Part shown: positions 11,895-59,977 of the stretch, piece by piece
Numbering within the stretch: the stretch's first letter is position 1
Layout of the letters: each line of letters starts with the position of its first letter
Assembly (NCBI GenBank): GCA_019426215.1
Contig: CM033392.1
Span: 53,805,149-53,869,148, forward strand
Direction: 5' to 3'
Source: Buddleja alternifolia
Taxonomy: Eukaryota > Streptophyta > Magnoliopsida > Lamiales > Scrophulariaceae
DNA length: 64,000 nucleotides
Made by a program: the position numbers and the translations under genes
Notes under the pieces: generated by a model
What the model was told of the DNA's origin: nothing
What the model saw: only the letters and a program-made list of their open reading frames with translations
The model's database searches: none

Positions 11895-11895
11895 C

Positions 11896-13201: not shown

Positions 13202-13207
13202 AGTTTT

Positions 13208-13225
13208 TGGCGCCGTTGCCTGGGA
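13208..13225 (+). promoter_or_regulatory. primer-binding site, Athila-like
   Basis: TGGCGCCGTTGCCTGGGA matches, with one change, the tRNA-Asp-type site TGGCGCCGTTGCCGGGGA characteristic of Athila-lineage Gypsy elements. Confidence 0.85.
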
Positions 13226-13315
13226 CAATTGTTTTATTTAATATTGAGATTCTCTTATCTATTCTAAGCTTAAGTCTTTTTTGTATATATTCTTTTTATT
13301 TTGATTCTTGAAGAG

Positions 13316-17298: not shown

Positions 17299-18599
17299 TG
17301 ATAAGCTCGTATTGTATGCCTTTTAGGCGCCTCTTTTCTTGTATTTTGATGCGGTCTTGAGTTTATTTATGCCACATATGCTTTGATTTTATGATTGGTT
17401 ATGTTTCTATAGGTTATTTGAGAATTGTAGCAAAAATGAGTGAAAACATCAAAAAATTTCTCGAAAACACCTTTAGCCATGGCTATAATGACCCTTAGCC
17501 ACGGTGATCATAAAGGAACCTTCGTGCTTTGAAGATATGAAGTAAGAAAGGCTAAAAAACGTGTAAAATGTGAACAACGGATTTTAGCCACGGCTACCGA
17601 CGCTTTAGCCGCGGGTACAGGCTAATTTCAGCATCTATAAATACGCGCTATTAGGTCAAATTCGGAATTTTTCCCACTTTTGAGGGTTTAGACACTTTGA
17701 AACACACCAAGAGGATAATTGAGAGAAGTCTGGGGAAGAAGAAGAACGCTAGGATACTCCATCTTTGTCTACGAAGACGGAGAATTCAAGCAAAATTTAT
17801 AAAGAAACGTTATTAGGGAGTTTTAATTTCATGCTTTTAGATTTGTTTTCATTGAACATATCTTTCAAGATGAATTTTTGCTTTTGTTTTAGGATTATGA
17901 CTTAATTTCCCTTTAATTGAGGCCATGTGAAATCCAATTACTATGTTTGATTTATGAGTATTATTTTTCCGGATTAAATTTATTTTCGGTTTTGTGTTTA
18001 ATACTTGTTCTCAATGCCTATGATTGCTTAGCTACCAATCGTATAGATTTGTGCTTAGTTTTGAGACCGAGAGGAGATAAACTAGGGATGCATCTATGTA
18101 GTAAACACCACAATGTAAGATTGACTAGAGATAGATTTGATTTCCTTGTGTATGTTTTCCGCAAAAAAGGGAAATTCCATGAATCTTTGTAATGCGTTTT
18201 CATTAATTCGAATTTCATATAGAGATATAGAAATCGTTAATGAAAATAGAATTGCTATACGAAGAGATTGGATAGTGAGTAATTTAGGGAATTTCGCCTT
18301 GACCTAATCAATCTAATAATCTGGTAAGATAGAATCATAGTCAAATTGAATAATTGGTTAAATAATGTGCCTTAATCACTTTTCTCATTGATTAAAATTC
18401 AAATTTGATTTCTCTCATTATTTGGTAATTGTTATTTAGTATTTTAATTCATAATTCACACCGTTATCGATTCTTAGAATTAGATTAAACAGTAGTTTCA
18501 GTACTTAAATACAATTGTCTCTAGGGTACGATAATCCGGACTTACATCCACTATATTACTTGCAAGACCTAGTACACTTGCTAGGATTTCTGCGTGTCA
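17299..18599 (+). repeat. 3' LTR of Athila-like element (internal to a partial tandem)
   Basis: TGATAAGCTCG...GTGTCA, nearly colinear with 11896-13201. Unusually for a 3' LTR, it is followed by a PBS-like TGGTGTTGTTGCCGGGGA (18606) and more internal sequence. It is therefore the shared middle LTR of a partial LTR-internal-LTR-internal array. Confidence 0.85.
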
Positions 18600-19332
18600 T
18601 GTTTTTGGTGTTGTTGCCGGGGACAATTGTTTTATTTAATATTGAGATTCTCTTATGTGTTCTAAGCTTAAGTCTTTTTTATATGTATTCTTTTTATTAT
18701 GATTCTTGAAGAGATGAATGATTATAACTATAATTGGTCACAACGAAGATGGAGTGTAGGAGATTATGAGAGTCATGTTTAAGATTTTTGTTCGTTGTGT
18801 GGAGGCGTTTATCAGAGTGACTACTATCAGCAAGGATGGAGAAATCAGCAGGACTTGCCATTGAGTTATTATGCAATTAGAGCTTCGCCAACATATCAAC
18901 AACATGATATGATCTCGAGTTTTGAAGAGCTGATGATCCAATGGATGAAGCAAAATGACACCATGATTTCACGACTTGATGTGCGGGGTCAAAATATAGG
19001 ATCATGCATCATGAACGTCCAAGCATAACTGAATCAAATCTCCAACTTATTAGCAGAGATGTCATCAGACCCCATGTATATTAACACATAAGAGAATGAT
19101 GAGGCTTACTAGAGGACTCACAATTCAGCACTTATTCTCCGAAATCCATCCCATCAGATGACCAAGAAAAGATATTAGAAATCTTCAAGAACCAAACATT
19201 GTCGACCATCATATCTATCGAATTCTTACAAAAGTGTATCAATAACCAAAGAGATAGAGTGGAGGAGGTTGAAGTCAAGGTTTACAACTCTAGTGATCCA
19301 TTCGATGCATATTTTGAGAACCCAAGTGATAT
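18600..19332 (+). repeat. partial second internal region of Athila-like element
   Basis: Matches 13202-13940 including the degraded PBS, the ATG at 18714 and the CSLCGGVYQSDYY segment, where the last zinc ligand is lost. It ends abruptly near 19332, where SIRE-like sequence resumes. Unequal or illegitimate recombination is the likely origin. Confidence 0.75.
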
Positions 19333-19888
19333 TTTGAGATTTCATTCCCGCAGGCTATAATGAAGACAAATACGTTATTGCGAAGAATGAAATCGCCATG
19401 ATGGTAGAGCGTGATCATTTACTCTGTCAGATGATATACAACTCAGAGTTAACTGATGTTGAGCATGCGTATTATTTGTCCATTTCCAACAGTGAGGAAA
19501 TTGATCAAGTGCCTGCGTTAGTTGCTATATATGAGAAGCGTCGAGGCCAAAGAACTCACCTTGCTGATGTGGAGTTGGCATATTTCTTGGATATGGGGCA
19601 CATCAAGCCATCTGGATTTGCTCTAAGGAATTATAAAATTAGAGTTTATAAGCGTCTACTTGTTGAGTTCCTCAATCCATCAGAGAAAATCTTGAACCGA
19701 GATTGTTATTCGCACTTTCCTGAAGTGGTGCATAGTGTTGCAAATAAGAGTTCGAAAAATCAACTTTCGTCTTTGGAAAAATAAGAGCGTTCATATTGGT
19801 GAACGTGCAGCATCCATCGAGGATTGCATTCAGGAAGAAGCCGACGAATTCTTCAATCACTACTACAAAAATACCCAATTATAGCGCA

Positions 19889-20815: not shown

Positions 20816-23489
20816 TTTGCGAATTTCGTGTCATTTCGACACGGTAAAATTATAAACGAAAAAGTGAAATTAATAAAAAAAAATAAAAAATACCCTATTA
20901 CAGCGGTTCTAAACCGCTGTAATAGGTCGAAACCCTATTACAGCACTGCCTATTACAGCGGTTCGAACCGCTGTAATAGGTCCAAAAAAACCGCTGTAAT
21001 AGGCATTTTTTGTAGTAGTGAATAGCGTCTGGAACTCTAATTACCAAGTGGATTGCTATCGATTTGAGGCTACAAGAGATATTCACCATGAAGGCATAAA
21101 GGCCATATGCAACGCTAGATCTGACTTTGGATGAATGAAGTGACTTAGTGTGAAGCTTGTGTGGGCAATAGATATTCTTTTCAGGAGTTGGTTAACGCTC
21201 CCCATCTATTTGGCATAGGCATGCATGACAAGAAGTGTCAGTTTGTTAAGTATTGCCTTCAGAAGCGTTCGATGCGAGTAGGACCAATTGCTGACTTGCC
21301 AAGGGTCAGAAAATCGGTTGAGACCTTTCTGTGAGCAACACTCAAAAGGCTTGTAGAAACTCCTCTTACCTTCACTAGTAAAGCGTCCAGTAGCGGTACT
21401 CGATCAATGTCTGATTTGACTATCTCTCCCAGTCATTGTGACGAGAATATATGACAGATGGTCAAGATTATGGCTCCAGTGAAGCACTTCGATCACATCT
21501 TCACTGCAAATCTGCGAAAAATAAATGGCTCAATCATCAATTCATTCAGGGGTTACCCATTACCCCCCTCCATCAAAAACGAATTGAGCGACCACTACTC
21601 ATACGTCATTTCTTTGTTGGAAAGAAATTGGGGCATAGCTTAGGCTGTTTATCCTTATTTGGAAGAGTATTACAGACTCTACCAATCCTCCTCGTCTTCC
21701 AACTAATTGCCTCATATCCTTCTCGCTGACTTATCGCACAGACGAACTCTTTCTCATTTCTCCAGTGAAGTCAAGGCTATTTCCTAACCATGTGCTGGAC
21801 ATCTTAGGTCCAATGTGGGTTAGAGCGGTGGACAGTCCTCTCCGCACATTCATTCACATCACCTACATGTTAACGCGTCGCATCTACGAGCTTCTTGATA
21901 GTGCTACTGATTTTCATACAGGTACAATGCTTGGTAAACTTAACTTTCAATTTGATTATTATCATCACATGCTGCCAGTGTCTGTGGAAGTACCTGTACC
22001 AGAAGAAGTCCCCTCAGTGGAGCCTATTGCTGATAATGCTCAGGTGGACTTAGTTTCTCAAAGCGTCCAAACTGAAACAGAACCTCAAGTGCCTGATGTG
22101 GCCGCTATTGCTGAAACTTCAATTATTCCAAAGGCTGCAAGTGTTTTTGATGCTGAGATTGAGCATGATCCCACAACTGCTGAAGCGTCTCTACCAAAGT
22201 TAAAACTTGATGCTAGTGTTGCTGAGGTTGCATAGTATGCTGATAATTTGGGACAAGTGCAAGGTAAAGCGTTTTGATTCAGCAACTCAAACTTCCTTTA
22301 AATCCTTGAGGATCACTTCCAAGTTTAAGCAGAAATCAGTTACTCAAATGGTTATTCCAAGTGAACCTGGTGGTCAGGAGTTTACTCCAATTCTACGAGA
22401 TGCATTAGAGGAAGTGCGCAATCATGTTGCAAATAGCGTTAATGCTCTCCATTGGATTCAAGAAGATCTTACCAAGATTGAATCAAAAAATTTGGATACT
22501 CAAATTGTCCACATGTGCGGAGCTGCTCAAGCTGTTGTTGCTGAAAGTCTTAAAGCATTTCAAGAAATTGCTGACGCTAATTGTGCAGCTCAGATTGAAA
22601 TGAAGGAGCACTTCGACAAGAGCTGTGATGATCTAGCAGGTTTTATTTCTCAGATTGCTCATTAGATCGGTATTCTTGCAGAATACATTCTAAAGAATGA
22701 TGATGGCAATAAGGGAGAAAAGAGGAAAGCACTGAGTTCAAAAGCTACCAGTTCATCTGCAAAGCGTCAAGAACTTCAGCCTGTGCTAACACAAAGTATT
22801 CTAAGTCAAACACTTCCTCCTCCGCTCAATATTGAATCCCGTTACCCAACTTGGGTTGATGCTATTGGAGCTCCTAGTCGTGCATCTGGGTTTCTTCCAA
22901 TTAAGTAAATAGCTGATTTTCCAGTTCCGTCGCAAGCGTACCTTGAACAATTCGACGTTATGATTGAACGAGCATCTTTCCCAGAGCCAACTGATTAGAA
23001 AGTAATTGCTATAGGAAAGCAGGTGCCAGAGTTCAACCAAGCATACAAAATTTGCCTAAGGTATATTGGCATTGATCCATCAGAATGGGATAAGCGCTGG
23101 ATTGCTTTCGACAAAAGAAGTAAAGAAAAAAAGAAAAGCATCGTCAATGCAGACCATGCTACAATAAAAGCTCTAGATGATCAACTCACTGAAATCAGAG
23201 CTGAAGTAGCCAGAAGATACAACTTAATAAAGAAGCGCAAGCGTTAAGAGACCTCTTCAAAAAATTATCTATATTCTTGTCTCTTTTGTCTCTTTTATTT
23301 TTTTAGTTGTAAATGCCCCGTACTTACATTGATCTATATAAGTGCATTTCTAGCTAAACATCTCGTTCAACTTTTAACTAACCTTAACTAACTTTATCTA
23401 ATCTTTTTCAAAGCTAATTTTTGTATTTTGGATGTCTAACTCTTGAACTATATAAGAGTGAGCATTGCCATCATCAAATAGGGAAAAAT

Positions 23490-38019: not shown

Positions 38020-38033
38020 GACTACTACAGAAA

Positions 38034-38160
38034 AGGTCTATTACAGCCGTTTTTTCCAGTTATTACAGCGGTTTTAACTGCTGTAATAGGCAACGTTGTA
38101 ATAGGGCTTAGGCCTATTACAGCGGTTTTTAACCGATCTAATAGGTACTCTATTACAGTA
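38034..38160. repeat. subterminal repeat array, left end of large CACTA
   Basis: Direct and inverted, partly mutated copies of CCTATTACAGCGGTT, for example TATTACAGCGGTTTTAACTG and CCTATTACAGCGGTTTTTAA, matching the arrays of the 1.16-kb element. Candidate binding sites for the element's own proteins. Confidence 0.8.
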
Positions 38161-42366: not shown

Positions 42367-45062
42367 TCATCGTTTTCTTTTTGTCATTGGCTTAGCAATC
42401 TTTTGCATCCCATCGGTACGACCATTTTTTTTAGTACGCCGACAAACTGATAGATTTATCCATATCCCCTCTTGGTGATCATGTCGCATATACAATTCAT
42501 CATCACTTATATCCAAGTCCTCGTCACTATCAATTGATTGTGAATCACCTAAGATAGGATTTTCTCCATCATCTTCACTTTCTTCATAATCATCATAATA
42601 CAAGTATTTTTATTTGCCGATAAAACAATGGACCACCTCTTATCAATAGGATCGGTGACAAAAAATACTTGCTTAGCTTGTGATGCTATAATGAAAGGTT
42701 CATCTTTGTATGCCACCCTTTCAAGGTCTACTGAGTGAAGCCTATTTCATTACTTTGGACACCCGAATACAGGCACCCGAAACCAACTATAATCCAACTC
42801 CCATATACGTTCAATCACCCCATAATATGATAAATCGTCATAGATAGGGTTATTATCTTTCACACTTGAGATATGCATTGCTTGAGCTACAAGACTCACC
42901 CCCTATTCTACATTGTACTTCGTTCATCTTGGTCTTTTCTATAGAAGGTGCGACCATTTATACGATAACCTGAATAACAAAATACTAGTCTGTCTGGACC
43001 CATCGGCAACCGTGTCAATTTATCTGAAACTGAAAGTGGATTCTCTTTCTGTTTCTCTTCAATATGCTTTCGGAACCAATCAATGAAACTCTTGTTATGC
43101 TCTCTTGAAATCCAGCTCTCATTTTTAATTTGATTGAATCTCCTAAGTTGGTCCTTGTGCTCTTCAACATATGGGTCAACCTCGTCGGTGTTGTGGAGCA
43201 CATATAGGTGTCCCTGCTCCTTTTGTGTGCAAGTAACACTAACTAATTGCTTTCTAATTACGCTTTTTCGTTATGTTCTCCCTCCCACAACATGAGACTT
43301 TGGAAGCTCTGCAACATTAGAATTTGCCAGATACTCTGTGCAAAATGTAATGGCTTCATCAACTATGTACCGTTCAACAATGCAACCTTTCGGTCGACTA
43401 CGATTTTTCACGTAGCCTTTCAATACCTTCATATAATGCTAAGCCGGATACATAGATCTCATAAAAGCCGGTCCATATTGTTGTGTCTCTCTAACCAAGT
43501 GAATAGGTAAGTGATTCATTATATCAAAAAAACGCAGGTGAAAAATACATCTCAAGCTCACACAAAGTGATGACATTTTGTTTCTGAAGTACAGGAAATT
43601 GTTCAAGATCAAACACCTTGCTCCACATTGCTTTGAAGAAGAAACACAATCTAGTTATCGTGTCTCTTACCTTTTTTGGCAAAATGGCCCGTATAGCAAT
43701 TGGTAGCAAATGATCTATGATTACATGACAATCATGAGTCTTCATGTGCTTTAGCTTCAAGTTCTTCATTGATACAAGACTGCTAATGTTTGAAGAATAC
43801 CTTTTTGGAACTTTCACTCCATTAAGAAGCTCACATAGTGCAATTTTTTCTTTCCTAGATAGAGTGTGAGCTGTTGGAGGCAAATAAGTATGTTTCCCCT
43901 TATTTGTTGGTACCAATTTACCTCTTATATTCATATCAACCAAGTATAACCTTGCCTTTACGCCATGTTTTATCTTTCGGGCACATTTATAAGTGTACCA
44001 ATGACACTATCAAATACATTTTTCTCAATATGCATAATATCAAGAAGATGTCTAACATGTTAGGACTTCCAATACGACAACTCAAAGAAAATTGACCTTT
44101 TTTTCCACCCAGTTTTTGCAAGGCCACCTGAAAAAGTCTTTCTAAATTTGATATCCAAGTCTTTTACATTCTCAAACACATCTTCATTAGTCAAGCACTT
44201 AGGAGCTCGACCTTCTTCTATATTCCCATTGAAAGCTTTCTTCCATCGACGATATAGATGGTTCCGATTCAGCCATCTCCGATGCCTTTGTAATGCATAT
44301 TTCTGAGAGTGTGGCAATCAATATTGATCTATACTCTTGAAACATATGAGGCATCCACATTGGCCATGTACACCATATCCTTCAAGATTTGCTCTTCCCA
44401 GAAAATCATTGATTGTTCCAAATAACATGACTCTGAGATTGAAATTTTCTTCTCTGAACCCATCATATACTTCAATACCGATCTCCCACAACATCTTTAG
44501 ATCCTCAATTAAAGGAACCAAGTAGACATCTATATCATTTCCAGGTTGTTTCGGCCCAGAAATGAGTATATGCACCATTATATGCTCTCGCTTCATGTGT
44601 CGCGATAGGGGTAGGTTGTAGATCATCAAAATCACCGGCCATGTACTATGTGAACTACTTTGCAAGCCATGAGGGTTTATGCCATCCATATCTAATACAA
44701 GGCACATGTTTCTTGATTCTTCACCAAATTCAGGGAAATCATCATCAATCTTTTTCCATTGAGGAGAATCTGAGGGGTGTCGAATCTTGTCATCTTCAAT
44801 CCTTTTTTCAAGCCGTATATCAGCATGCCATGTCAAGTCCTTGGCAAACTATTGACTACTGTACATGCGCTTAAATCTAGGTATTATGGGTAAATACCAC
44901 ATTGTTTTAACAGGAGCAGATCCATTCTCCTTGTACCGGGAGGCGCCACATTTTGGACAGACCTTCAATGATGCATAAGCCATTCTAAACAATATGCTAT
45001 CATCGAGATAGACATGTATCTTCTCATATCCCATGCCAATTGAGGTTAACATCCATTTAGCC
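42367..45062 (-). pseudogene. CACTA TNP2-like transposase, C-terminal portion
   Basis: Reading downward from 45053: GMGYEKIHVYLDDSILFR and CPKCGASRYKENG (zinc-binding C-x2-C), MWYLPIIPRFKRMY, and the Transposase_21 core with RNMCLVLDMDGINPHG (44700) and CGCLICFKS (44340). Then come DUF4218 (about 43770-43530, HDCHVIIDHLLPIAIRAILP) and DUF4216-like sequence (LDYSWFRVPVFGC and SQAKQVFFVTDP on shifted frames near 42780-42640). The acidic C-terminus (DEDLDISDDELY) ends near 42367. Multiple stops and frameshifts. The N-terminal portion lies at 59461-59977, beyond the Mutator-like insertion. Confidence 0.9.
45054..45062. repeat. left target duplication of Mutator-like element
   Basis: CATTTAGCC, identical to 59452-59460. 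Nine bases is the standard Mutator duplication. Confidence 0.92.
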
Positions 45063-45099
45063 GGGAAAATTAAGCCAATAGCAACATTTTGCATAGCTT

Positions 45100-46415
45100 T
45101 TAGGGAAATAGCAGACTTTTGTCTTTTTTTTCATTTCTTTTATTGAGTTGTGGACCCATGCCTTTCTCCAAATACAAATATAAGCTTTTCTTTTAATATA
45201 AAAATAACAAAATAACTTAATTAAATGTGTAATGACTTATATAGCCTTTTAGTTCAAAACAAATAATAAACCCTAATCTTTCTCCCTTCTGATTGAAGCA
45301 ACGGGAAAAAACAAAAACAAAAAGAGAAGACGAAATCGTCGAAGAGAAGAAGAAGAAGAAACAGAGTCAAACTCGAGGTTGAAGGTCTCTCTCTCTCTCA
45401 CACGTCGATTTGGGGGTTAGGGTTTATGAATATATCTCTAATTTCACTGCAAATTAAACACGAAAAGCTTCATTTGGGTGTATTAATTGTTGACCTTTTG
45501 AAGTTTTTGCAGTCCTCTGCCGGTGTGGAGTTTGTGTGTAATTTGAAGTTGTGCATAAATGGTTGAGGTTTTGAAAATGGGAGAATCTTGTGCAGAAATC
45601 ATTTGGGTATACCCTTGGGTATATTAATTTGATTGAATTTTGGGGATGAAACTGTTATAGGAGTCGATTTAAAAGGTGATTGAAAAGCTCAATTGATTGT
45701 TGTTTGGTGTGTGATTGTTTGTGCAGAAATTATTGAGGTCTTGAAAATTTGAAGTTTGTGTAGAAATTGTTTGGGTGTATTGATTTGGTTGAATTTTGTG
45801 GGTGAAACTGTTATAGGATTCAATTTAAAAGGTGATTGAAAAACTGAATTGATTGTTGTTTAGTGCATTATTGTTTGTGCAGAAATTGTTGAGGTCTTGA
45901 AAATTTGAAGTTTGTGCAGAAATAGTTTAGGTGTATTAATTACATTGAATTTTGGGGTTGAAACGGTTATTGTATTCAATTTAAAAGGTGATTGAAAAGC
46001 TCAAATGATTGTTGTTTAGTGCGTTGTTGTTTTATCTTTTTTCGATTTTTGAATTTGGAAAGAATTTTAGTTTCATCTTTTAAACAGACGAAACTGTAAT
46101 ATGGTATTGAAGGAAGTGTTCGTGTCGTGAATGGGTGTTATTTTGTACATTTGGGCATAATATTTGAAAGTTAAAGTTTTAGTAAAGGAAAAAATGATGT
46201 TTGTTCAATTGAAAGCTCTTTGCTTAATTCTCCCATTTGGTGGTTATTATTATTATTATTATTAGATTCATAGTTTACACTAGTTCGTGTGTTGTTTTGT
46301 GTATTGGAGCATAAAAGTTTAAAGTAAAAGTTTATTGTAGGATAAAAACTAATTGTATTCAATTGAATCTGAATTGTGATTTTTCGACCTTTCTGCTTCC
46401 ATGCTCCATATAAAG
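45100..46415. other. non-coding 5' region with three 156-bp repeats
   Basis: GAATTTTG(T)GGG-TGAAACTGTTAT recurs at 45635, 45791 and 45947 (period 156 bp, block about 45575-46040), with GTTTGTGCAGAAATTGTTGAGG in each unit. Adjacent sequence with CT-rich and CTAATCTTTCTCCC stretches (45270-45410) looks like promoter or 5' UTR for the DUF1985 gene. A (TTA)n run lies at 46246-46264. Confidence 0.7.
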
Positions 46416-48420
46416 ATGCCACGGAATCGGTCTAGGCAGAACTCATCTACTCGGCCCACTCCGAATCTGAATCCCAATCCCGATCCAAATCCAAGGTTAC
46501 CGGGTCGTCGGATAGAATTTTCGTCTCCACTTGTAACCCAATCACCCACTCCCACTCTCAATCCCATCTCGGTAAGTAAAATGAAATGATTTCTACTTTA
46601 CTCTTAATATTATATCAAATTTGTCATTGTTTTTTGAAGTACATTGTATAACTTATTCTTAGGTTAATGGTGTAAATGTCATCCCTCGATCCAGTCTTAT
46701 ATTGACTCCCAATGAATTTAATTTCAAGTGTAAATTGGCGACTCATTGCAAATTGGCAAAAGAAGTAAAATTTATTGAAGATTGCTTGAAAGATCATCCC
46801 AGTGGGTTAAATTGGTTGAAGACTTCCCAATTTGGCCATCTCTTTGAAGTTGCTCCTTACATAGAAACGTGTTTAAGTCCATTGTGGATGCTTCTAAGTA
46901 GACAAGTGCAAATGAATAATAAACTTGAATTGTGGTTTGTTCTTAATGGCACCCCTATACGGTACTCTCTAATGGAGCATACACTTATTAGCGGGTTGAA
47001 TAGCTCTCCTTATCCGTCAAAGGTTTTACGTGGTGATGGTTTCGAGGAACGATTCTGCAAAAAAAAAATAACACTGAAAGTTGTAAGGAATATGCTTAGC
47101 AACTTCACTATCCCTGTTGAAGAGGTTGGAGGCATAAGTGGGAGTGTTAGGCAACAAGAGAGGGAGAGCCTTTTGTTAGACAAGTTGAAGTTAGCAGTGT
47201 TATTCTTTTTGGCATATGTTTTATTTAGTCGCAGGTCAGAAGATTGTGAAATAGATAAAGATTTGGTTGCAATTGTCGATGACATTGATGTTGCATGCAC
47301 TTATCCATGGGGTAGGATGAGTTATTGTTATCTAATAAAGGAAGTGCGGAATTTGAACATCAAACGTCTATGTAGTTCAGCAAATCCACAGTGGACATGT
47401 TGTGGCTTCATTCTACCACTAATAGTAATAAATTTTTGTATTCCATTGTTAAAACTTGTGTTTTAATTTATTCAGTTTGTTATGTCACAATTTTGAATGT
47501 CCATGTTTGTAGTTGCTGCCATTTGAATGTATTTCAGCACTGTCACCGAGCATTGGGCATGTGAGGGATGTTATCATTGGCCAATTGCCAAGAATTTGGT
47601 ATTGGGACACTCAATTCAATTTGAGAAAGCAAGCTCCATCTTTGGGCCAAATTCTACAAGTGGTTGGTAACTCGAAGGTTGGTGCTTTAATTTCAGCATG
47701 TTATATATTCTATGTTTTATAATATAGTATTGATTAGTTCTATGTTTTTGAGAGTTTCAGAAAAGGAGGAGCATACTTACACCGACGGCAGAGGAGTTGC
47801 AATCCAGCCACATGCAGGGTTTTGCTCCTATCGACCAATACATTCCCATCACTACTGTTAACACCACTACTGATCAGTGGACGATTGTACTTGAGAATGG
47901 GGACAGTATATTCTTTGAAGATATTTGGCGAGAAGATGTTGAAGGTCGACGTTCATTCCTTGAAAAAGTGATTTTGTCTGAACGCAGTGCACAGGACACC
48001 GTTCTAGGTGGTTAGACAATACCTTTCGAGTTTACAAATCATGTGCTTAAAATACTGGAATCCTTGATGGAAAATATGTCTGAGTTAAGAAATGATATGA
48101 ATCTTCAGAATGAAAGACTACAACGGTTGGAAGAGAAGGTAGAAGAGGTGGTAAAAAGGACTCGGCCTAACCACGTGGAAGAGGAGGAGCACCGAGAACA
48201 AAGTGTGCATAATCGGGATGACAATGATGATCGTGTTGGGAAAGAATATGGTGGGCAGGATTGGGATGTAGTCGTTGTGCAACCAGTAGTTGGGGATGAT
48301 GATGTTCCGGTTGGAGACAAAGAAAAGAGGTTGAAGAGGAAATCTAAATATACGCAGCCCCCATTCACGAGCCCCACTTATTTGACGAGGGGACGGAGGG
48401 TGTTGAGTAAAAGAAAATAG
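46416..48420 (+). pseudogene. DUF1985-domain gene of Mutator-like elements, one internal stop
   Basis: Four exons with consensus splice sites and phase-0 joins can be drawn: 46416-46571, 46663-47424, 47513-47677, 47761-48420. Exon 1 encodes a Pro/Asn-rich N-terminus (PNLNPNPDPNPRLPGRR). Exon 2 encodes the DUF1985 domain (FGHLFEVAPYIETC, ELWFVLNGTPIRYSLMEHTL). Exon 3 has SIGHVRDVIIGQLPRIWYWD. Exon 4 has an acidic segment, a coiled coil (LQNERLQRLEEKVEEVV) and a basic tail. One in-frame TAG at 48013-48015 interrupts an otherwise open frame. In plants DUF1985 is often fused to a Ulp1 peptidase within Mutator-like elements; no peptidase is seen here. Function unknown. Confidence 0.75.
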
Positions 48421-48506
48421 TCCCTGTCCCATGTAATTTACTATTTTTTAACTGAAATTTATTTATATTTTCACTTGTATTTTAGTTTTTTTGTGGACTG
48501 ATTTTA

Positions 48507-50303
48507 GATTGGGTGTCCAATCTGACCGGTATACATGTATACCGAATGGATTGGGGTACCAATCTAACCGGTATACATAATATCACTTTATTAAATAATA
48601 TATTATAGACGGATAAATATAGGTTTATTCCTGTGAAAATGGTGAGCTAAATAATTTACGTTTCTAAATTAATTTATTTTGTTAATTAAGTGTAATTCAT
48701 GTATGTAATACAAGTTGATATATCAACATTGATTTTTCCAATTTTTGGTAATTCATGAATATACCGGCTAGATTGGGTGTCCTATCTGACTGGTATACAT
48801 GTATACAGGATGGATTGGGGTACCAATCTAACCGGTATACATAATATCACTTTATTAAATAATATATTATAGACGGATAAATATATGTTTATTCCTGTGA
48901 AAATGGTGAGCTAAATAATTTAAGTTTCCAAATGTAATTTATTTTGTTAATTAAGTGTAATTCATGTATGTAATACAAGTTGATATATCAACATTGATTT
49001 TTCCAATTTTTGGTAATTCATGAACATACCGGCTGGATTGGGTGTCCAATCTGACCGGTATATATGTATACCGGATGGATTGGGGTACCAATCTAACTGG
49101 TATACATAATATCACTTTATTAAATAATATATTATTGACGGATAAATATATGTTTATTCCTGTGAAAATGGTGAGCTAAATAATTAAAGTTTCTAAATGT
49201 AATTTATTTTGTTAATTAAGTGTAATTCATGTATGTAATACAAGTTGATATATCAACATTGATTTTTTCAATTTTTGGTAATTCATGAATATACCGGCTA
49301 GATTGGGTGTCCAATCTGACCGGTATACATGTATACCGGATGGATTGGGGTACCAATCTAACCGGTATACATAATATCACCTTATTAAATAATATATTAT
49401 TGATGGATAAATATATGTTTATTCCTGTGAAAATGGTGACCTAAACAATTTATGTTTCTAAATGTAATTTATTTTGTTAATTAAGTGTAATTCATGTATG
49501 TAATACAAGTTGATATATCAACATTGATTTTTCCAATTTTTGCTAATTCATGAATATACCGGCTAGATTGGGTGTCCAATCTGACCGGTATACATGTATG
49601 CAGGATGGATTGGGGTACCAATCTAACCGGTATACATAATATCACTTTATTAAATAATATATTATAGATGGATAAATATGTGTTTATTCCTGTGAAAATG
49701 GTGAGCTAAATAATTTAAGTTTCTAAATTAATTTATTTTGTTAATTTAGTGTAATTCATGTATGTAATACAAGTTGATATATCAACATTGATTTTTCCAA
49801 TTTTTGGTAATTCATGAATATACCGGCTAGATTGGGTGTCCAATCTGACTGGTATACATGTATACAGGATGGATTGGGGTACCATTCTTACCGGTATACA
49901 TAATATCACTTTATTAAATAATATATTATTGACGGATAAATATATGTTTATTCCTGTGAAAATGGTGAGCTAAATAATTTAAGTTTCTAAATTAATTTAT
50001 TTTTTTAATTAAGTGTAATTCATGTATGTAATACAAGTTGATATATCAACATTGATTTTTCCAATTTTTGGTAATTCATGAATATACCGGCTAGATTGGG
50101 TGTCCAATCTGACCGGTATACATGTATACAGGATGGATTGGGGTACCAATCTTACCGGTATACATAATATCACTTTATTAAATAATATATTATTGACGGA
50201 TAAATATATGTTTATTCCTGTGAAAATGGTGAGCTAAATAATTTAAGTTTCTAAATGTAATTTATTTTGTTAATTAAGTGTAATTCATGTATGTAATACA
50301 AGT
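48507..50303. repeat. 265-bp tandem array, about 6.8 copies
   Basis: GATTGGGTGTCC starts units at 48507, 48771, 49036, 49301, 49566, 49830 and 50094, giving spacings of 264-265 bp. Units are highly similar over their whole length. Each unit contains a palindromic block, CCGGTATACATGTATACCGG in the intact form, then ATTGGGGTACCAATCTAACC. Several units carry a CCGG to CAGG change in the palindrome. The last unit is truncated. No coding potential. Confidence 0.95.
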
Positions 50304-50418
50304 TCAAACAACATAATAATTAAATACTCAATATTCTAGTTCAAGTCTCTAAATTCAAGTCCGTTCAATACGACATAATAAATTAATACATGTTGTGAAT
50401 TTTTGGAGTATCCGTGCA

Positions 50419-51979
50419 TCATAGGTAAGCCGCCCCTTTTATGAAATGAATTTGCACATTGTTTGACGCGGTAGCTTCATACGCCCTAATTATTGGCCTC
50501 TTATGCACACCAATTGGATCATCAAAAAATTGATGAACACAGTAGATATTTAGTATACCCAACTCAGTTGCTTGCGACAACACGTAGCGAATGTAGCTTA
50601 GCTCGCAATCAGAACCCGAGAAGTTGAAGATCGTGACCTCATTCAATGCCTCCAATCCCATTGCTTGCAACTTCCAGTCCTTTACGTAGTTGGATACACT
50701 AGTCCCCGCGTTTTCCCATGGTGCACCCTACACATGTTAAGTCAATTATTTTAGAAACCCAAACAAAGAACGTGTTAAATAAACCATGTAATAACTAATA
50801 AGCGACAAACCATAAAACTTAAAATATTACCACCAAATCAACTTTAAGCTCATTCAAGCCTGTACATCTACTGATGAGCACCAATGTGACAGCAAGATTG
50901 TCAAGCAGCTTCGAACACCTGATCTCTAGGCGGTGCATATTACCAAAAAAGTACCTCGCCATAATGCGATGTAGAGACTCCACATGCGCCAACATCTAAA
51001 CAAACGATTCAAAAAAAAAAAAACCAGGAAATCAAAAAAACTTCTTAAAAGCATTTGCACTTATTCAAACAATGATAGATAGATATACCCTAACAAAATC
51101 AACCGGGACACGTGCTCGTTGACTGGACAGCAATTCTTTCGTCATTTTTACAACCTCTCGAAGTAGTCGGTATGTCGAGCAAGTTGATCCGATGTAGTGT
51201 TGATGACGGTGTACTATCCACTGTAAAGAACGAGGTAACGGCCCCAATACTTGTAAATACCCTGGACCATGTTCGTCTTGTTTCAATAAAATAACAAGGA
51301 CATTTACATTGGGGAAGTGTACTTTATATTCACATTTCCTTGGGCCCGATTGAATGCCATCTTAAATATTTTTACAGAATGCAAATATGCCTCAAATTCT
51401 GTTAGTCCTCTAAAATCATAGTTGAATAACTGCAAATCATTCAACTCGGGACACCATTTTCCAAGGCGGGAAGAAATGTGTTATCATACAGCACAACATG
51501 CTTCAATGTAGTTCCCACCTAACAATGTAGTTCCGTAGATATAATTTTAACTGAACAAGAGTTTGTGACAAAAACATGCCGTTAGGGAGTGAAGTGGACA
51601 ACCGGCCGACTAATTTCAGTCTACGCACAGAAGGATCTACTCCAAACGCCACCCACTCTTGCCTTATCCGATGCAATGCCTCGGCCCCCATGTGTAACTC
51701 ATAGCTCAAGGTTTCAACCACACTTTCATTATGTTCAAGTATAGTGCGATTAACAAAATGAATAAAATCTAAACCATGATAACCCCTTTGTTCGAAACGG
51801 CTAATATCGAATAAAAGAGTAGGGATAGAATACCAACAATGTTGAAAATACTTTGATAAAAGACCCAATCGGGCTGCCTCCACAATGCATGCATCCCTTG
51901 ATAATCTTCCCATAACATGAAAAATTATATCCTCACAAAGGAAACTAAGCCCATTATTAAAAATTGTACCTCGTTCCAT
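50419..51979 (-). pseudogene. F-box/LRR/FBD-type protein gene, degenerate
   Basis: Minus strand from 51979. The first open stretch (51979-51503) encodes an F-box-like N-terminus (LCEDIIFHVMGRLSRDACIV, LLSKYFQHCWYSIPTL) and the start of leucine-rich repeats (LPNGMFLSQTLVQLKLYL). Further LRR-like pieces follow at 51470-51340 (CPELNDLQLFNYDFRGL) and at 51286-51065. An exon at about 50998-50830 encodes LHRIMARYFFGNMHRLEIRC. An exon at about 50730-50419 carries an FBD-like end (ALNEVTIFNFSGSDCELSYI). A stop near 51500 and frameshifts break the gene. Plant F-box/FBD proteins act as substrate adaptors of SCF ubiquitin ligases; here it is probably a captured host-gene copy. Confidence 0.7.
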
Positions 51980-52504
51980 GGTTGTTTATATGAACTATCC
52001 CCTGTTTATACTTTGTTTCTACTCGTGCAAGATGATCCCCTGTCTCCCCTGTTTATATCTTCCTTTTTTCGTGGAAGATGATCCTCACAAATATCCCCTG
52101 TTTATACTCTGAAAATTCTTTGTATAGTTTGGTGGGGGAAGAGATTGTTCGATTTTGAAGTCATTTTGGTTTGCTTTTGGTTGTAAAAAAGATGAAGACA
52201 AATGAGAAGGATTTATCTAGTCCCACAATTTTATATATTATTTTCCAAGTGAAAATGTAAGGGTTAAGTAATATGAAAAGACTTTCACTTTTTATTGTGG
52301 TTAATGGGTGGTTTCTTAATTATAAACATCCACCCAATCCCCTCACTCCACGTGTCCGTCACTTGTCTAACTTTAATTCCACTAACTTTAATTATACTAA
52401 CTTGAATTAACCTTAATTAACCTTTTCACTTTTCTTCTTGACAGAAATAGAATAAATATTTCATGAGAGTGGAAATTAAATCATCCAAGCAATTAAAAAA
52501 AATA

Positions 52505-53343
52505 TCAACTAACATTCTCCACCGGAACCTCTTTAGTTCCCACTACAAGAAGGTTTCTTTTCTTGTAATTAAGCTGAAAATATTTAAACCTTAGACTCTT
52601 TGTTTTTTCATCCAATTGCATGTTTGGAATCTCTTCCATTAATTTCATCTCTTGTTCCAATTTCTGCAACTCTCTCAACTTCCCATCTCCTTCCTCTTTT
52701 CCTAATTCCTGTTAAAACCACATTTAAACCACAGTGGCACACACATTCTAGAGAGAGAGAGAGTACAAATACATATACCTGGACATTCTTGATTAGGGTT
52801 TGAAGGCTCATGAGTTTTCTATGAGGCCATCTCCTAATTCCCAATTCCCTGCACCTTTTCTTCAAAAGGGTTAACCCTACATTCAATGCTATTGCTGCTT
52901 GTGTTATTGGCATGTAAAAATACTGCGAAATCGTTTTCCTCGACAATGTCTTCATTACTTCCCTTGATCTTTTAACTATTTTCCCAACTTCATCCACATG
53001 TAAATTCTCATCAAACGTCACCATTGTCGCGTTATTGATATTACCACCAAATAGCAACTGCTGCTGGTTTAGTTGATCTTCAAATCCTATTCTCACTTCA
53101 TCCCATAACCTTAATACATTCCCAGAGTTGCCCCACAATAGCTCTGCAATTAAACCAAAAAATGAAAATGAAAATGAAAATAAAAATAAAAATGAAAATG
53201 AAAATTTAATTACCTGGAATGTTAAAAGCAAGGTTATGTGGCGGACTGAAAGATGAATAAAAAGGGTCATCTACTATCATCTCCGTCAAAGGAAGAGCAT
53301 CAAATACAGTTTCACAAATGGAAATCTGGGTTGGAAATTCCAT
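52505..53343 (-). CDS. RKD (RWP-RK domain) transcription factor, intact three-exon gene
   Basis: Exon 1 53343-53214 (130 bp), exon 2 53143-52779 (365 bp), exon 3 52708-52505 (204 bp). Introns are GT-AG with a TTTAATTGCAG acceptor; the first splits a codon, the second is phase 0. The joined frame is 232 codons without a stop. Exon 2 carries the RWP-RK domain: ISQYFYMPITQAAIALNVGL, LLKKRCRELGIRRWPHRKL, SLQTLIKNVQ, including the RWPHRK core. Exon 3 gives a Glu/Leu-rich, probably helical C-terminus and KTKSLRFKYFQ, as in RKD proteins. Size fits small RKDs. RKD factors are nuclear DNA-binding regulators of egg-cell identity and early embryo patterning. It lies inside the Mutator-like element, in the same orientation as its transposase. 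An ATG at 53390 opens a short out-of-frame frame overlapping the start, so the true N-terminus may differ. The last roughly 17 codons are less typical of the family. Confidence 0.85.
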
Positions 53344-53434
53344 TCACTACTACAACCAGATAATAATCCATTGTTTTGCCCAATTTCCATCGTAGTTTGA
53401 TGATGAAAATTAAAATAATTTTTGATTTTCTGAT

Positions 53435-53457
53435 TATATATATCTATATATATATAT
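53435..53457 (-). promoter_or_regulatory. possible TATA region of the RKD gene
   Basis: On the minus strand a TATATATATAGATATATA stretch lies about 90-115 bp upstream of the chosen ATG. It is a plausible TATA box but also a simple TA-rich run; no transcription start can be inferred. Confidence 0.3.
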
Positions 53458-53471
53458 GGAAGAGAAGACAT

Positions 53472-54931
53472 TTATGGTTTTACTCAGCAAATATTTTTTA
53501 TCAGCCGTCGTGTGACTGTGCTCACTTTAATGTCAAGAGACGTCGTGTCCTTTAATGTGAAGAGTCGTGTGAAATTTTGATTATTTTGATTAATCACATG
53601 AGGTATATACCAATATGCAACTTTTCTAATTAAATAAACTCCTAAAAGCGTGGGATATGGAACTCAATGAGCAACTGCAAAATCGAGGATATGTAATTTG
53701 AAGATAAGGAAACAACTTTAGGGTACAAAGAATTATTATTAAATTAATATATAATAAGGAAATTAATATCGGAAAAATAGAAAGCTTCTTCCATTAATTA
53801 TAGACAACTCTTTGTGCTTCTTTTTCACCTTTAAAATGTCAAGTCACCTTTAAAAAAGAAATCATAGAAACAATAATGAGACAATTTTTACCACTTTTTG
53901 ACTTTTTTTCTTGACATAATTGAACATTGATATGAATGGAATATTTGCAGATACCCAATCGGTTTGAAATTTGAAATGAATTGAGGGGGAAAGTGTGAAA
54001 TGAATTGAAATTGTTCAATTTAAGGGTTTAGTTTAGGGTATTAACATATGAGCTTAGTGAAAATTAATTTAATATTGACAATATTGGGATTGTGTTTAAA
54101 TGGATTACACAAATATCACATTTTGATCATTTTTATATTGCATATAGGAGGTATACTATAGTGGTATAGTGTATATTAACATTTGAACTTAATTGAGCTA
54201 CACTATAATAGGTATATAAACTCAATATGGACAATGAAATTTAGTGAAAACTAATTTAATTTTGATAATATTGGGATTGTGTTTAAATGGATTAGAATAA
54301 TTTCATATTTTGATTGATAATATTTATTATTAATTAATTATTTTATATTAAATGAAAACTAATTCTATACAATTTATTATTAATTAATCACGCATATCAT
54401 ATTTATGTTTGGGCCTAACTTCTATGTGTAAAGGTGTCAAATGGGCCTAAAGGGCCAAATTGATCATTCTCGTTAGATAATTATCATAGTAAGCATGTCG
54501 GTCAAAATTATTTGTGCATTTGTCTTCAATTAAATGAGACTGAACTCGTTAATACTATCATATTAATTTGGACCGATTTCATTTATCATAGATAATTATT
54601 TGTGCATTTGTCTTCATTTCAACATTTGGTTCTCTACTAATTAATATATAATAAGGAAATTAATATTGGAAAAATAGAAAGCTTCTTGCATTAATTATAG
54701 ACAACTCTTTGTGCTTTTTTTCACCTTTAAAATGTCAAGTCACCTTTTGATTAGCCATCCAACATCTGTCTTTATATTATGTCATTACCATTCTTTAAAA
54801 AAGGCAAATTAAAGGGGGTCATAATATCGAATATATAATTATTGAAGATCACGTGGTCATCACCTTACAATCATAACATATATGTGATTTTTAAATGAAA
54901 AGGCAAATTAAATGAAGTTTGAAACCTTTAC
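53472..54931. other. AT-rich spacer with a 110-bp direct repeat
   Basis: GGAAATTAATATCGGAAAAA and the following ~100 bp to TGTCAAGTCACCTTT (about 53757-53852) recur at about 54653-54747, roughly 895 bp apart. AATCACATGAGGTATATACC near 53595 recurs near 55461. No gene. Confidence 0.6.
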
Positions 54932-55254
54932 CTATGTGTCTAGTTTCATTGGAAGAAAATGGTTCATGAATCCGAGCTTTTTACAATGAGTTATGAATTT
55001 TCTCGTAAAGACGCGCACAGCTATCTGCACAGCCGACAGATTTTTAGCTAACTTTGAATACAAAACTGCTTTGTTATAGACGTCTCCTGATTATGTACGA
55101 TATATGCGTGGATAACCCTATGTGTCTAGTTTCATTGGAAGAAAATGGTTCATGAATCCGAGCTTTCTACAATGATTTATGAATTTTCTCGTGAAGATGC
55201 GCACAGCTGTCTGCACAGCCGACAGATTTTTAGCTAACTTTGAATACAAAACTG
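54932..55254. repeat. direct duplication, about 135 bp, period 187 bp
   Basis: TATGTGTCTAGTTTCATTGG...CTTTGAATACAAAACTGC occurs at about 54932-55067 and 55119-55254 with few differences. The second copy directly abuts the transposase scrap. Confidence 0.8.
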
Positions 55255-55440
55255 CAAACAAGTAATATGCCCTTATACTTGGTCTTCAACCAAGTCCCAT
55301 CAATTGCAATTACCTTCCTCATACACTTGAAGCCTTCAATGCATGCTCCCAATGCAAAAAAAAAGAGAAGTGAACTCATTCTCCTCATTTTTAACCAAAT
55401 GATAGATTGTCCCACCCAAATATGAAAGACTCACATTCAA
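55255..55440 (-). pseudogene. duplicated fragment of Mutator-like transposase
   Basis: Encodes GACIEGFKCMRKVIAIDGTW and LKTKYKGILLV, the first-Asp region of the MULE catalytic domain, almost identical to 57070-56966. It starts and stops abruptly, so it is a local duplication rather than a second gene. Confidence 0.85.
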
Positions 55441-55749
55441 TTATTGGGGCCACAAGCCTTAATCACGTGAGGTATATACCAATATGCAACTTTTCTGGCC
55501 TTAACATGCAATAATGTGCAACAAAAAAGGGGCAAAAGAAAAGGAACCAAAGCAATAATGCAGACAGATTGTAATCTCCTTGCAATCTCATGTAATTACG
55601 CAATTGAACCTCAATACGCAACTTACACATCAATACTCAACTTGGAAACAAACAAAAATAAAAAGTGAACAAGATTATGAAATTGAGAAATGAACAAGAT
55701 TTAACAATTAATTCATTTACAAATTAACAACTAAAATAAGAAGTGAAGG

Positions 55750-58340
55750 GTAAATTACAACATCGATTTAAAATTTTGTTGGGTCTTTCTTCGATTTCTT
55801 GCGTTTTGGTTTTTTGGATATTTTCTTCGGAGGTGGTCGAGCCTCTCCAGCGGAAGCCTTTCTTTTCACCACAGGTCTTCCGGCCTTCACTAAATGAGGA
55901 GGAGGTTTCAACTCCTCGCTTTTATTTCATCGGGGATGACCCACTTTGATTGACTTGGAACGGGGTATATGGTCCGTACATATGACGATGCCCATGTATT
56001 TTTCCAATATAATTTTGAGCATAGCTCTAGCATAGACTAGCCAATTGGAACAGTTGCAAGGGCGTGAGAGCACGAGAGCTTGTCCAAGTTAAATACCTCG
56101 CAAGTGCACTGTCGATCCAAATAATTGACTAAGAAGCTTTCCCCTTTGTCAAAGACGAGGTACTCTCCTGTTTCCCTATTTAGTTCTTTATATGTCATTT
56201 GAAGGGACTCTTGTTTCCTTGCATACAACACACTTTCCACCGTTGGAGTTAGTAGTTGCGCCGAAGACCCCTCAGAAGCTGCAATCCGGTAATCATTGAA
56301 CCACATTGGTATTTTCTCCACGATCTCATCAATCAAAAGTATTAACGAATATCTTCAGGCATATCTCAATGTCGAGTTAATTGACTCAGCGCCATTGGTA
56401 GTGAGAATGTTGTAACGAACACCTTCAAAGAAGCACCTAGCCCATTTCTTAGGGTCAAGACTATTTTTGGGATTTTCAAGATACTTAACAGCTGCAGGAT
56501 GCCTATTCCCTAACACTTTATACAGTCGATCAAACTCATCTGAAGTATATGCTTCAGCACAAGCCATGAACAATTTAAAACAACTGTTTTGCGCATTTTC
56601 TCTGTCTTCAGGGGTCCTACCTATATTAATGGGGAAATTTTGAAGAGTAACATTAATGCATGACTTTAATATACTTTAGAAGATTGCAGTATTTTGAAAA
56701 ATAAATATACCTGACTTAACGCGTGACTTAATATTTTGAGAAATATGTCAAGCACAATAACCGTGTTGAGCCTTAGGGTAAACTTTAGGAACTGCATTAA
56801 TGAGGCCTTGGTTTCTGTCTGACATGATGACCAATTCATCATCATCGGGTACGAGGTCTGCAAGTTTCTCTAGGAACCATTGCCATGATTCTTCACTTTC
56901 TGATTTAACTATGCCAAAGGGAACTGGATATTGATGTTTATTCGCATCTTGTGTGGTGCAAACAATTAATATGCCCTTATACTTTGTCTTCAACCAAGTC
57001 CCATCAATTGCAATTACCTTCCTCATACACTTGAAACCTTCAATGCATGCTCCCAATGCAAAAAAAAAGAGAAGTAAACTCGTTGTTCTCATTTTTAACC
57101 AAATGATAGATTGTACCGGGATTCAACTTTTTCAAAGTATACAAATAACTAGGAAGAATAGCAAAACTAGACTTTAGATCTCCCCCCCTAATAATATTTC
57201 TAGCAATATTTTTATCATTCCACGCTTTGTAGTAAGTTACTTTCACGCCATAATTCGTTTGCATTGTGTATGTTATTTTCTTTGGCGTAGGTGTGTCCGC
57301 CTGACCTGGGAATTCCTTTGCCAACATATTAGCAACTAAACTTGAAGTGACTTCGCGTGTCTATTTTTTGTGGCACTAATAGGGGAGCATGTATGTACCT
57401 TATTATGAATACGCAAGGAGAATTTATCTGAGCCTTTAACCTTCGCCGCGTACAACCTCCACTCGCAATCCTTGATTTTACACTTCGCCAAAAATATTTT
57501 ATTGTTTGACCTCGTTATGGTAAAATCAAAACAATGTTTCAATGAAGAGGTTACTACCAAATTTCTCAACTCTGCTTCGTCAATGAATTCCGCTCCGATC
57601 AAAATATCAACACCATCACTAAAATTGAACTCTCGACGGCTGTCATCACTCACAAATGGTTCACAATGATCCTTAAAATCTTCAGCGTTATCTTCGTCTA
57701 CAAGTCGAATCTGTTGGATTGGAGTTGGGGAATCCGGAGTAGTATTAGAGGGAGTTGGAGCACCAACAATACAATTTGATGACTGAGATGCACCAGTAGG
57801 ACTTGACAAGAGAGTTGGGGCAGAGTCTATTGAGGTGTTATCTTGATGGAGGGCCAGGGACATTGGCTCATCAATATTTACACCCTCGCGATTTTGTGCA
57901 AATGCAGAATCATAAACCCTTATTTCTTCCATGTCCATGTTGAAATCATCATCTCTACCATTGTCAATATCAAAAAGCCCATTGTCAGTTTCATCTTTCC
58001 TCATTAGCTCAACATATAGAGTACTTCTATTTTTCGATGCATTACAACGGTCCTTAAGATAACACTTTGCATCAAAATTATTCTCGATATATACGTGACC
58101 CGAATCATTATATGACGATGGAATGTAACTCAATCTAATATCTATACTCGTCCGATCAAAAGGGGCCTTTTCAAATATCTGGTCATGTAAATGGGAAAGG
58201 GTTATCGTGTCTGGATCATCTACTATTAGCGCATTCTTCATTTGATTACCATTCCTTGAAACCCATCCATATGATCCATTTTATCCCTATTTTTCCTTCC
58301 ACTCACCATCATATCGATAATATAATGGAATCTCAGACAT
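55750..58340 (-). pseudogene. MuDR-type transposase of the Mutator-like element
   Basis: Starts MSEIPLYYRYDGEWKEK at 58340, followed at once by TAG (58289-58287) and TAA (58283-58281). The frame then runs 58241-57336: an acidic variable region, then the MuDR DNA-binding domain (VVTSSLKHCFDFTITRSNNK; C-x4-C...H-x-C as CKIKDCEW and HNKVHTC). Catalytic MULE domain: VIAIDGTWLKTKYKG, ELVIMSDRNQGL and NILTTNGAESIN, supplying Asp, Asp and Glu. SWIM zinc finger: CTCEVFNLDKLSCSHALA (about 56105-56055). A C-terminal basic tail reaches about 55750. Frameshifts near 57363 and at an A8 run (57060-57067), and stops after HGYCA and NSTLRYA, inactivate it. An intron of about 90 bp may lie at 56710-56625. Confidence 0.88.
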
Positions 58341-59409
58341 TTGCTTGAAAAACTAAAATAAAAATGAATATATTGAAAATATCAAAAACAAAAATTATTT
58401 AGTGAAGAAATAACTTAATTGATCTTCAAAGTAAATAAATAATGCCACTTACGACAATAGACTCATATCTCATATTTCAGAATAAAAAATCAGTTGTATA
58501 ATCAAAAGGTAAAACTAGTATTAAACTAATTATAAAGATCGACTTTGGTAAATGGTAGATTACTCACTAACTCAATCCCTTCAAATTAGCTACTAAACAA
58601 TGAATTATGTATATGAACCCTTCAACATGACAAAACAATTTATTAAACTAACAGTTCGGTTAAGCAAATGAATTAAGGGATAAACTATTAATTATTATTG
58701 GAAATTTAACTTAATCAGTTAAATATATGAGACTTAATCACATTGATGAATATTCAACTAAGAAGATCACGGTCTAATTAATTAACAAGAAGTTAATATA
58801 CCAATTCACCATATACTATAAAAGAGGAACAACCGGCTTATTGAAGAGGACCAAGGGCTAATTGTTAAATGAATGACAACATTTGAAGAAATCAGCCATC
58901 AAAATAGTTAACATAGGCAAAGAAGAAAAGCAGAAGGGTGTACCTACTGTGGAGGGGAAAGGTAATGGAATTGCTTGTGTGTGTATATATATGTAGTACT
59001 TTTCAATGTCAATTTTTCCTCCTCTATTCTTCCCGACGGCGTGCGTGGATGAACTTCCCGACGAGTTTCCCCGTGCCGCCGATGAATGTGTGCCCGTGCC
59101 GCAGACAGTGTGAGGATGTGGAGAGGGATAGAGATTTTTGGTAATTTTCCCGTGAGAGAGCAGCCGATCGAGAGAGTGAGAGCACAGAGATATTCAGTTA
59201 TTCATTTTGTTTAACAGGCCCATTTTGGTAATTAACAATTTCTTGATTTCTCTATTCATTTTAATTTCTATTTGGAAGCAAGGGTATCTCGGTCATTTCC
59301 ATTAATGGGTATTTTCTCAGCCCTTTTTTTCTTTTAAATGAGTTGGAGTGGACCCCATTTGACTTGCTATGCTATGCTCTTAAATATTTCCAATTTGGTT
59401 GCTATTTGA
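58341..59409. other. 5' region of Mutator-like transposase
   Basis: Non-coding upstream sequence of the minus-strand transposase. 59030-59200 is GC-richer with CTCTCACTCTCTCGATCGGC on the minus strand and looks like a 5' UTR or promoter. A 68-codon plus-strand open frame at 58938 lacks any domain and is not called. Confidence 0.5.
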
Positions 59410-59451
59410 TTAATAGAGTATGCAAAATGTTGCTATTTGCCTAAATGTCCC

Positions 59452-59460
59452 CATTTAGCC
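59452..59460. repeat. right target duplication of Mutator-like element
   Basis: CATTTAGCC, identical to 45054-45062. Confidence 0.92.
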
Positions 59461-59977
59461 TCATAAGTACGATTATGTAACACATTATCCTCGGGTAGCA
59501 TGATTTTTAATAGACCAAGTAAGTCTGTGAAACTCTTATCACTCCACCCATTGTTGGCTTTTAACTTGTATAGGTTTAGGACTGCTTTCAATCTTGTGAA
59601 TTTACTACCACTATACGGTGGTGTCTTTGAATCACTTGTCAAATTGTCAAACATTTTAGGACAATTTCGCAAGTCCTCCTAAATCACATTTGTCATCTCC
59701 TCCAAACGACCAGGCTCATAATCATTCATGTTAAAATCCTGTGATGGATATGATGTACCACCCAAATCATCTGACGTGACACTGCTTTCACTGTATCTTG
59801 TCCAACGTGTGTAGCTTTTATCAATTCCATTACACACCAAATGATCTTCCAACATAAACACAGGCAAGTGATTCTAGTTTGATCTGGTGCATGCTCAACC
59901 GCAAACTTGATGAACTCTTTAACCCCTTTCTCATACTGTTCCGACATACGATCCGCTAAAATCCAACTTTGATCCAT
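59461..59977 (-). pseudogene. CACTA TNP2-like transposase, N-terminal portion
   Basis: Starts MDQSWILADRMSEQYEKGVK at 59977, the transposon-associated N-terminal domain. After a frameshift near 59870 comes HLVCNGIDKSYTRWTRY. After a stop (TAG, 59679-59681) comes KLKANNGWSDKSFTDLLGLL and MLPEDNVLHNRTYEAKW, ending at the Mutator duplication. The next residues, MLTSIGMGYEKIH, lie 14.4 kb away at 45053. Confidence 0.9.

Follow-up and report, generated by a model that had tools for sequence, protein, structure and literature searches.

The evidence strongly indicates that an RKD-type gene with an unbroken reading frame rides in a Mutator-like transposon of Buddleja alternifolia, and this transposon interrupts the tnp2 gene of a CACTA element. 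We consider it likely that the gene is a recently captured, intron-retaining passenger of the Mutator-like element which is most likely unselected and probably silenced. The window, that is the whole stretch of DNA analysed, has a length of 64,000 nucleotides, and all positions given below refer to it. The RKD gene consists of three exons.

53214..53343, minus strand: RKD exon 1 (gene model, open frame)
52779..53143, minus strand: RKD exon 2, with the RWP-RK domain (gene model and Pfam)
52505..52708, minus strand: RKD exon 3 with the stop codon (gene model)

Across these exons a single frame of 232 codons plus stop is open from position 53343 to 52505 (minus strand), with two GT...AG introns of 70 bp each. 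The introns are retained and the RKD copy is therefore not a retrocopy. Pfam recognizes the RWP-RK domain (PF02042) in residues 110-157 (80.2 bits; cut-off 29.3), and the RWPxRK motif is present as an RWPHRK core. A search with the protein gave 613 homologues at E<=1e-3 from 903 candidates, and the comparisons with homologues in this work draw on the best 120 of the 613. The top homologue is a protein of Paulownia fortunei with 63% identity over 94% of the query, followed by proteins of Sesamum, Handroanthus, Cornus and Fraxinus; for P0001, P0002, P0003 and P0006 the identity is 56-63% over 89-94% of the query. Judged by these similarities, the assignment of 52505-53343 to the RKD genes is far beyond chance. 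In a tree built from the window protein and its first 70 homologues (71 rows in total), the RKD copy belongs to a set of 18 (support 98/97) together with 17 rows which are all Lamiales by name, and the fork of these 17 has a support of 89/83. The three-exon structure, the unbroken 232-codon frame, the GT-AG introns and the RWPHRK core had already been proposed in the initial annotation and are borne out by the gene model, by Pfam and by the homologues. The RKD copy has the RWP-RK domain and the RWPHRK core in common with angiosperm RKD proteins, the nearest being a protein of Paulownia fortunei and RKD1/RKD2 entries of Sesamum. It differs from them in its short C-terminal tail, in an altered block at residues 166-219 and in its position inside a transposon. 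Solved structures related by sequence to the RWP-RK domain were not found up to E 1, none of 16 pattern stretches in viral contigs was confirmed as RKD, and Rfam gave no match anywhere in the window at gathering thresholds.

The transposon around the gene is delimited by the following features.

45063..59451: Mutator-like element, 14,389 bp (scan for target-site duplication and inverted ends; empty-site join)
45054..45062: left copy of the target-site duplication, CATTTAGCC (scan, 9 bp)
59452..59460: right copy of the target-site duplication, CATTTAGCC (scan, 9 bp)
45063..45113, plus strand: left terminal inverted repeat, beginning with GGGA and matching the right end
59400..59451, minus strand: right terminal inverted repeat, matching the left end

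The duplication CATTTAGCC is perfect over its 9 bp, the element ends agree at 26 of 30 bases and the local alignment of the terminal inverted repeats extends over 52 columns. Target-site duplications of Mutator-like elements measure about 8-11 bp; terminal inverted repeats are not found in every Mutator-like group. The scan looked for duplications of 8, 9 and 10 bp beside inverted ends in six region pairs, with three shuffled controls per scan. The pair of CATTTAGCC scored 22, whereas the runner-up in any of the 18 scans, an AT repeat, reached 12.5 and shuffled sequences up to 9.5. Self-BLAST (E<=1e-4) gave no convincing pair of inverted repeats flanking the RKD gene; the only pairs spanning the gene were short and low-complexity-like and matched 61.0-61.8 kb to distant repeats.

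On both sides of the element lie parts of one CACTA gene.

44318..45053, minus strand: downstream part of the interrupted CACTA tnp2 gene (Transposase_21 and join)
59461..59977, minus strand: upstream part of the interrupted CACTA tnp2 gene (Transpos_assoc and join)

In the flank that is downstream in gene order, Pfam finds Transposase_21 with 192 bits (44321-44836), and in the upstream flank Transpos_assoc with 33.9 bits against a cut-off of 27.7 (59729-59977); both domains are on one strand. When the element and one copy of the duplication are removed, a minus-strand frame is open for 143 codons over the join, 72 before and 71 after it, as against 20 codons and 1 codon in all for the other two frames. 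Taken by themselves, the two pieces adjoining the join give no transposase match in Pfam. Stops delimit the 143-codon stretch at both ends and therefore the tnp2 gene is itself broken. From the ends, the duplication and the joined tnp2 gene it follows that everything in 45063-59451, the RKD gene included, is one insertion in a CACTA tnp2 gene. The initial annotation had put the gene aboard a Mutator-like transposon enclosed by two further elements with broken genes. The transposon now has exact ends, 45063-59451, and a 9-bp duplication, and one of the two enclosing elements is confirmed as the CACTA element with its interrupted tnp2 gene. A search for CACTA terminal repeats gave one weak, unconvincing pair.

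Further repeats occur elsewhere in the window. At 6219-7743 there is a palindromic element of about 1.5 kb, flanked by a perfect duplication of 10 bp (CTACAATAAA); its ends match at 19 of 20 bases. The segments 11486-13947 and 17299-19745 are direct copies (90-92% identity) in which the parts, about 2 kb and 0.4 kb long, follow each other in opposite order. An inverted repeat of 126 bp (82.5%) at 20894-21019 and 38021-38145 spans 17 kb, with no clear target-site duplication found.

The Mutator-like element carries several components besides the RKD gene.

46416..48420, plus strand: DUF1985 gene, VANC-like (Pfam DUF1985, 78.7 bits; four-exon model)
46416-46571, 46663-47424, 47513-47677 and 47761-48420, plus strand: exons of the DUF1985 gene, with in-phase GT-AG introns
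48406..50292: tandem array of seven copies, spacing 264-265 bp (repeat comparison)
50419..51985, minus strand: remains of an F-box/FBD-like gene (open pieces)
55251..55413, minus strand: duplicated transposase fragment (95.6% to 56957-57114)
56037..58340, minus strand: MULE transposase, broken (Pfam DBD_Tnp_Mut, MULE and SWIM)

Compared with its unbroken relatives P0121 (718 residues) and P0123 (396 residues), the transposase has two frameshifts and three to six stops, the count depending on the introns. Its joined pieces match 4 of 6179 candidates, with 44% to P0121 over 100%; with the N-terminal part alone none of 532 candidates was confirmed, and neither were two pattern stretches in viral contigs. 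The duplicated fragment at 55251-55413 shares a frame change with the main copy. The region 53590-55496 between the RKD gene and the transposase contains several internal duplications, one of which is this fragment. The DUF1985 gene has 581 codons counting both stops, and within 1.74 kb there is one premature stop (48013-48015). Thus both genes are broken, as had been stated initially. In the array the first copy has an identity of 66% and the rest 90-98%. The sequence CCGGTATACAT is found ten times on the plus strand and twice on the other strand, every time inside the array 48406-50292. The DUF1985 gene together with the array is possibly a VANC-like anti-silencing pair outside Brassicaceae. 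The third gene which had been called broken, an F-box gene, is not confirmed by Pfam: five open pieces picked by eye gave FBD as the only match, below threshold with E 0.085. For 50419-51985 the label F-box is thus a tentative one, based on resemblance.

The initial annotation had also called the RKD gene intact. This is correct for the frame, but the protein is shorter than its relatives, clearly at the C-terminus and less clearly at the N-terminus. Past the NYKKR motif only 16 residues follow, compared with a median of 54 in the 115 relatives where the motif was found, five of which have a tail of 16 residues or fewer. A longer tail is common in close RKD relatives and is not a defining trait. 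Ahead of the RWPHRK core there are 147 residues (median in relatives 182), and 18 of 119 relatives have 147 or fewer. The start of the gene is overlapped by a second open frame.

53286..53390, minus strand: open frame of 34 codons that starts at ATG 53390 and runs over the RKD ATG (53343) in another reading frame

ATG 53390 has an A at -3 and a G at +4, and by the Kozak rule it stands in a better start context than the RKD ATG. Immediately 5′ of the RKD ATG there are three stop codons. The frame from 53343 fits the profile of the relatives from the second residue on (35.8 bits). A frameshift in exon 1 had been suspected by eye; in shuffle tests the observed score was equalled or exceeded in 41 of 300 and in 443 of 1000 cases, and the suspicion is unsupported.

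Is the RKD copy constrained? In a leave-one-out comparison of 121 proteins it is changed at 5 of 59 conserved sites, which is rank 2 of 121 with a median of 0; one of the five changes, E129A, is within the RWP-RK domain. Its end branch is the longest of the 71 rows in the tree (1.03, median 0.27). Conservation was scored by region against a consensus built from 60 relatives. At residues 110-165 the copy agrees with the consensus in 54 of 56 positions, and 51 of the 60 relatives agree in the same number or fewer. The following block, residues 166-219, which ends in NYK(K/R)R, is recognizable with 37 of 54 consensus residues, and only one of the 60 is as low. Residues 1-109 keep 46 of 108 (9 of 60 as low). 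The long branch thus falls mostly outside the RWP-RK domain, which is what a gene under constraint until recently should show. A gene unconstrained over most of this branch would have lost the domain, and constraint on the copy has therefore either ended recently or persists.

The neutral expectation was approached by several yardsticks, all of them rough since intron calls alter the lesion counts and the duplications may be older or younger than the capture. In five internal duplications of the element 23 of 518 bases differ, about 2.2% per copy if split evenly. A neutral 696-bp frame was simulated, assuming a transition bias and 0.12 indels per substitution: it stayed open in 24% of the runs when 1.4% of the bases were changed and in 12.5% when 2.2% were, with 1.8 and 2.6 changes, respectively, expected in the domain. 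Two are observed against the consensus; this corresponds to about 1.6% neutral change in the simulation and is near to the 2.2% per copy of the duplications. With the lesion density of the transposase, assumed to be six in 2.25 kb, 696 bp would be free of lesions with a chance of 0.16; with that of the DUF1985 gene, one in 1.75 kb, the chance is 0.67, and with both pooled 0.30. The open frame is compatible with neutrality and by itself neither shows nor excludes selection. The contrast drawn in the initial annotation between the open RKD frame and the broken neighbours says little, as the DUF1985 gene has a single stop and the neutral survival is about 0.12-0.67.

We suggest the following course of events. 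A Mutator-like element, probably of a Lamiales plant, would have encoded a MULE transposase and a DUF1985 (VANC-like) protein. By copying DNA (transduplication) it would have taken up a genomic piece containing the greater part of an RKD gene, introns included, and perhaps an F-box-like neighbour. The loaded element would then have inserted in the tnp2 gene of a CACTA transposon. On the element the RKD copy is most likely unselected and probably silenced; silencing is expected, and small RNAs against the donor gene are possible. The DNA-binding domain would be nearly unchanged because the capture was recent relative to a long earlier history under selection.

A rather unlikely alternative is that the RKD copy is a functional, selected gene, either on the element or co-opted by the host, whose product is a shortened, DNA-binding regulator that alters dosage or competes. 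The open 232-codon frame with its GT-AG introns would fit, and an RWP-RK region as well conserved as in most relatives is equally expected of a maintained gene. A frame which is open where the transposase is not, and whose neutral survival falls to about 0.12 on one of the yardsticks (0.16, 0.30 and 0.67 on others), leaves room for constraint, and the altered C-terminal block may stem from a donor paralogue and not from decay. On the other hand, the shortened tail, the longest branch, the changes at conserved sites, the three stops right before the ATG and the overlapping out-of-frame ATG upstream argue against a functional gene. The most far-reaching form of such a function, in which a VANDAL-like transposon maintains a shortened but working egg-cell regulator among its cargo, we regard as very improbable. 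Were it so, the regulator, together with the VANC-like protein, could be expressed in the female germ line and would aid the movement of the element where it is inherited, or would alter embryo initiation of the host.

The opposite proposal, that the copy is already a pseudogene with its true start upstream, a frameshift in exon 1 and a 232-codon frame that begins at a chance ATG, is in our estimate decidedly unlikely. The better context of ATG 53390 points in this direction, as does a peptide upstream in another frame, WNFQPRF, which by eye resembles WDFQREF of Paulownia; this peptide is third of 15 profile pieces with 3.8 bits, under the HMMER inclusion threshold. Yet the shuffles mentioned above reach the observed score, and the frame from 53343 already matches the profile at its second residue. 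Finally, the RKD gene and the F-box-like gene are neighbours with the same orientation, as they would be in a resident host locus lying amid chance transposon pieces. Such a locus is hardly credible when a perfect target-site duplication and matching inverted ends bracket everything and excision of the 14.4 kb joins both tnp2 parts in frame. We therefore favor a recently captured passenger.

A Pack-MULE is a captured gene in an element without transposase, and in the element described here a transposase remains. That Mutator-like elements capture sequence from host genes is documented in the accessible text of PMC13317346, and the element resembles the Pack-MULEs and other gene-capturing transposons treated there in carrying host gene sequence. 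Pack-TYPE elements are non-autonomous according to the available part of PMC8903248, whereas our element has its own, though broken, transposase. With the VANDAL or Kaonashi-type elements with VANC (DUF1985), as far as described in the available portions of PMC5735166 and PMC13317346, it has in common a MULE transposase, a multi-exon DUF1985 gene and a non-coding tandem array. The group carrying Ulp1 is non-TIR in the same portion of PMC13317346, but the element here has terminal inverted repeats of about 50 bp, and Pfam gave no Ulp1 match among the pieces scanned. The initial annotation had drawn a parallel to nucellar embryony in citrus. Both cases combine an RKD-type gene with a transposon; for CitRKD1, however, the accessible part of PMC6090715 describes a MITE-like insertion upstream of the gene, whereas here the RKD gene is inside the transposon. 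In the openly available portions of the literature on RWP-RK, MULE, gene capture and apomixis we found no RKD gene described as lying within a transposon, and PMC12577126 and PMC12595863, which touch on RWP-RK and MULE, do not in their accessible text concern RKD cargo.

Gene capture by Mutator-like elements is thus well known, while an RKD gene as cargo was not met in the accessible portions of the open-access literature searched. The RKD copy of Buddleja alternifolia is a concrete and testable case, with a nearly unchanged DNA-binding domain in a shortened protein; it should not be taken for a proven regulator. Since RKD proteins have been connected with the fate of egg cell and embryo, mobile copies of RKD genes would offer a new way in which dosage or silencing could affect reproduction.
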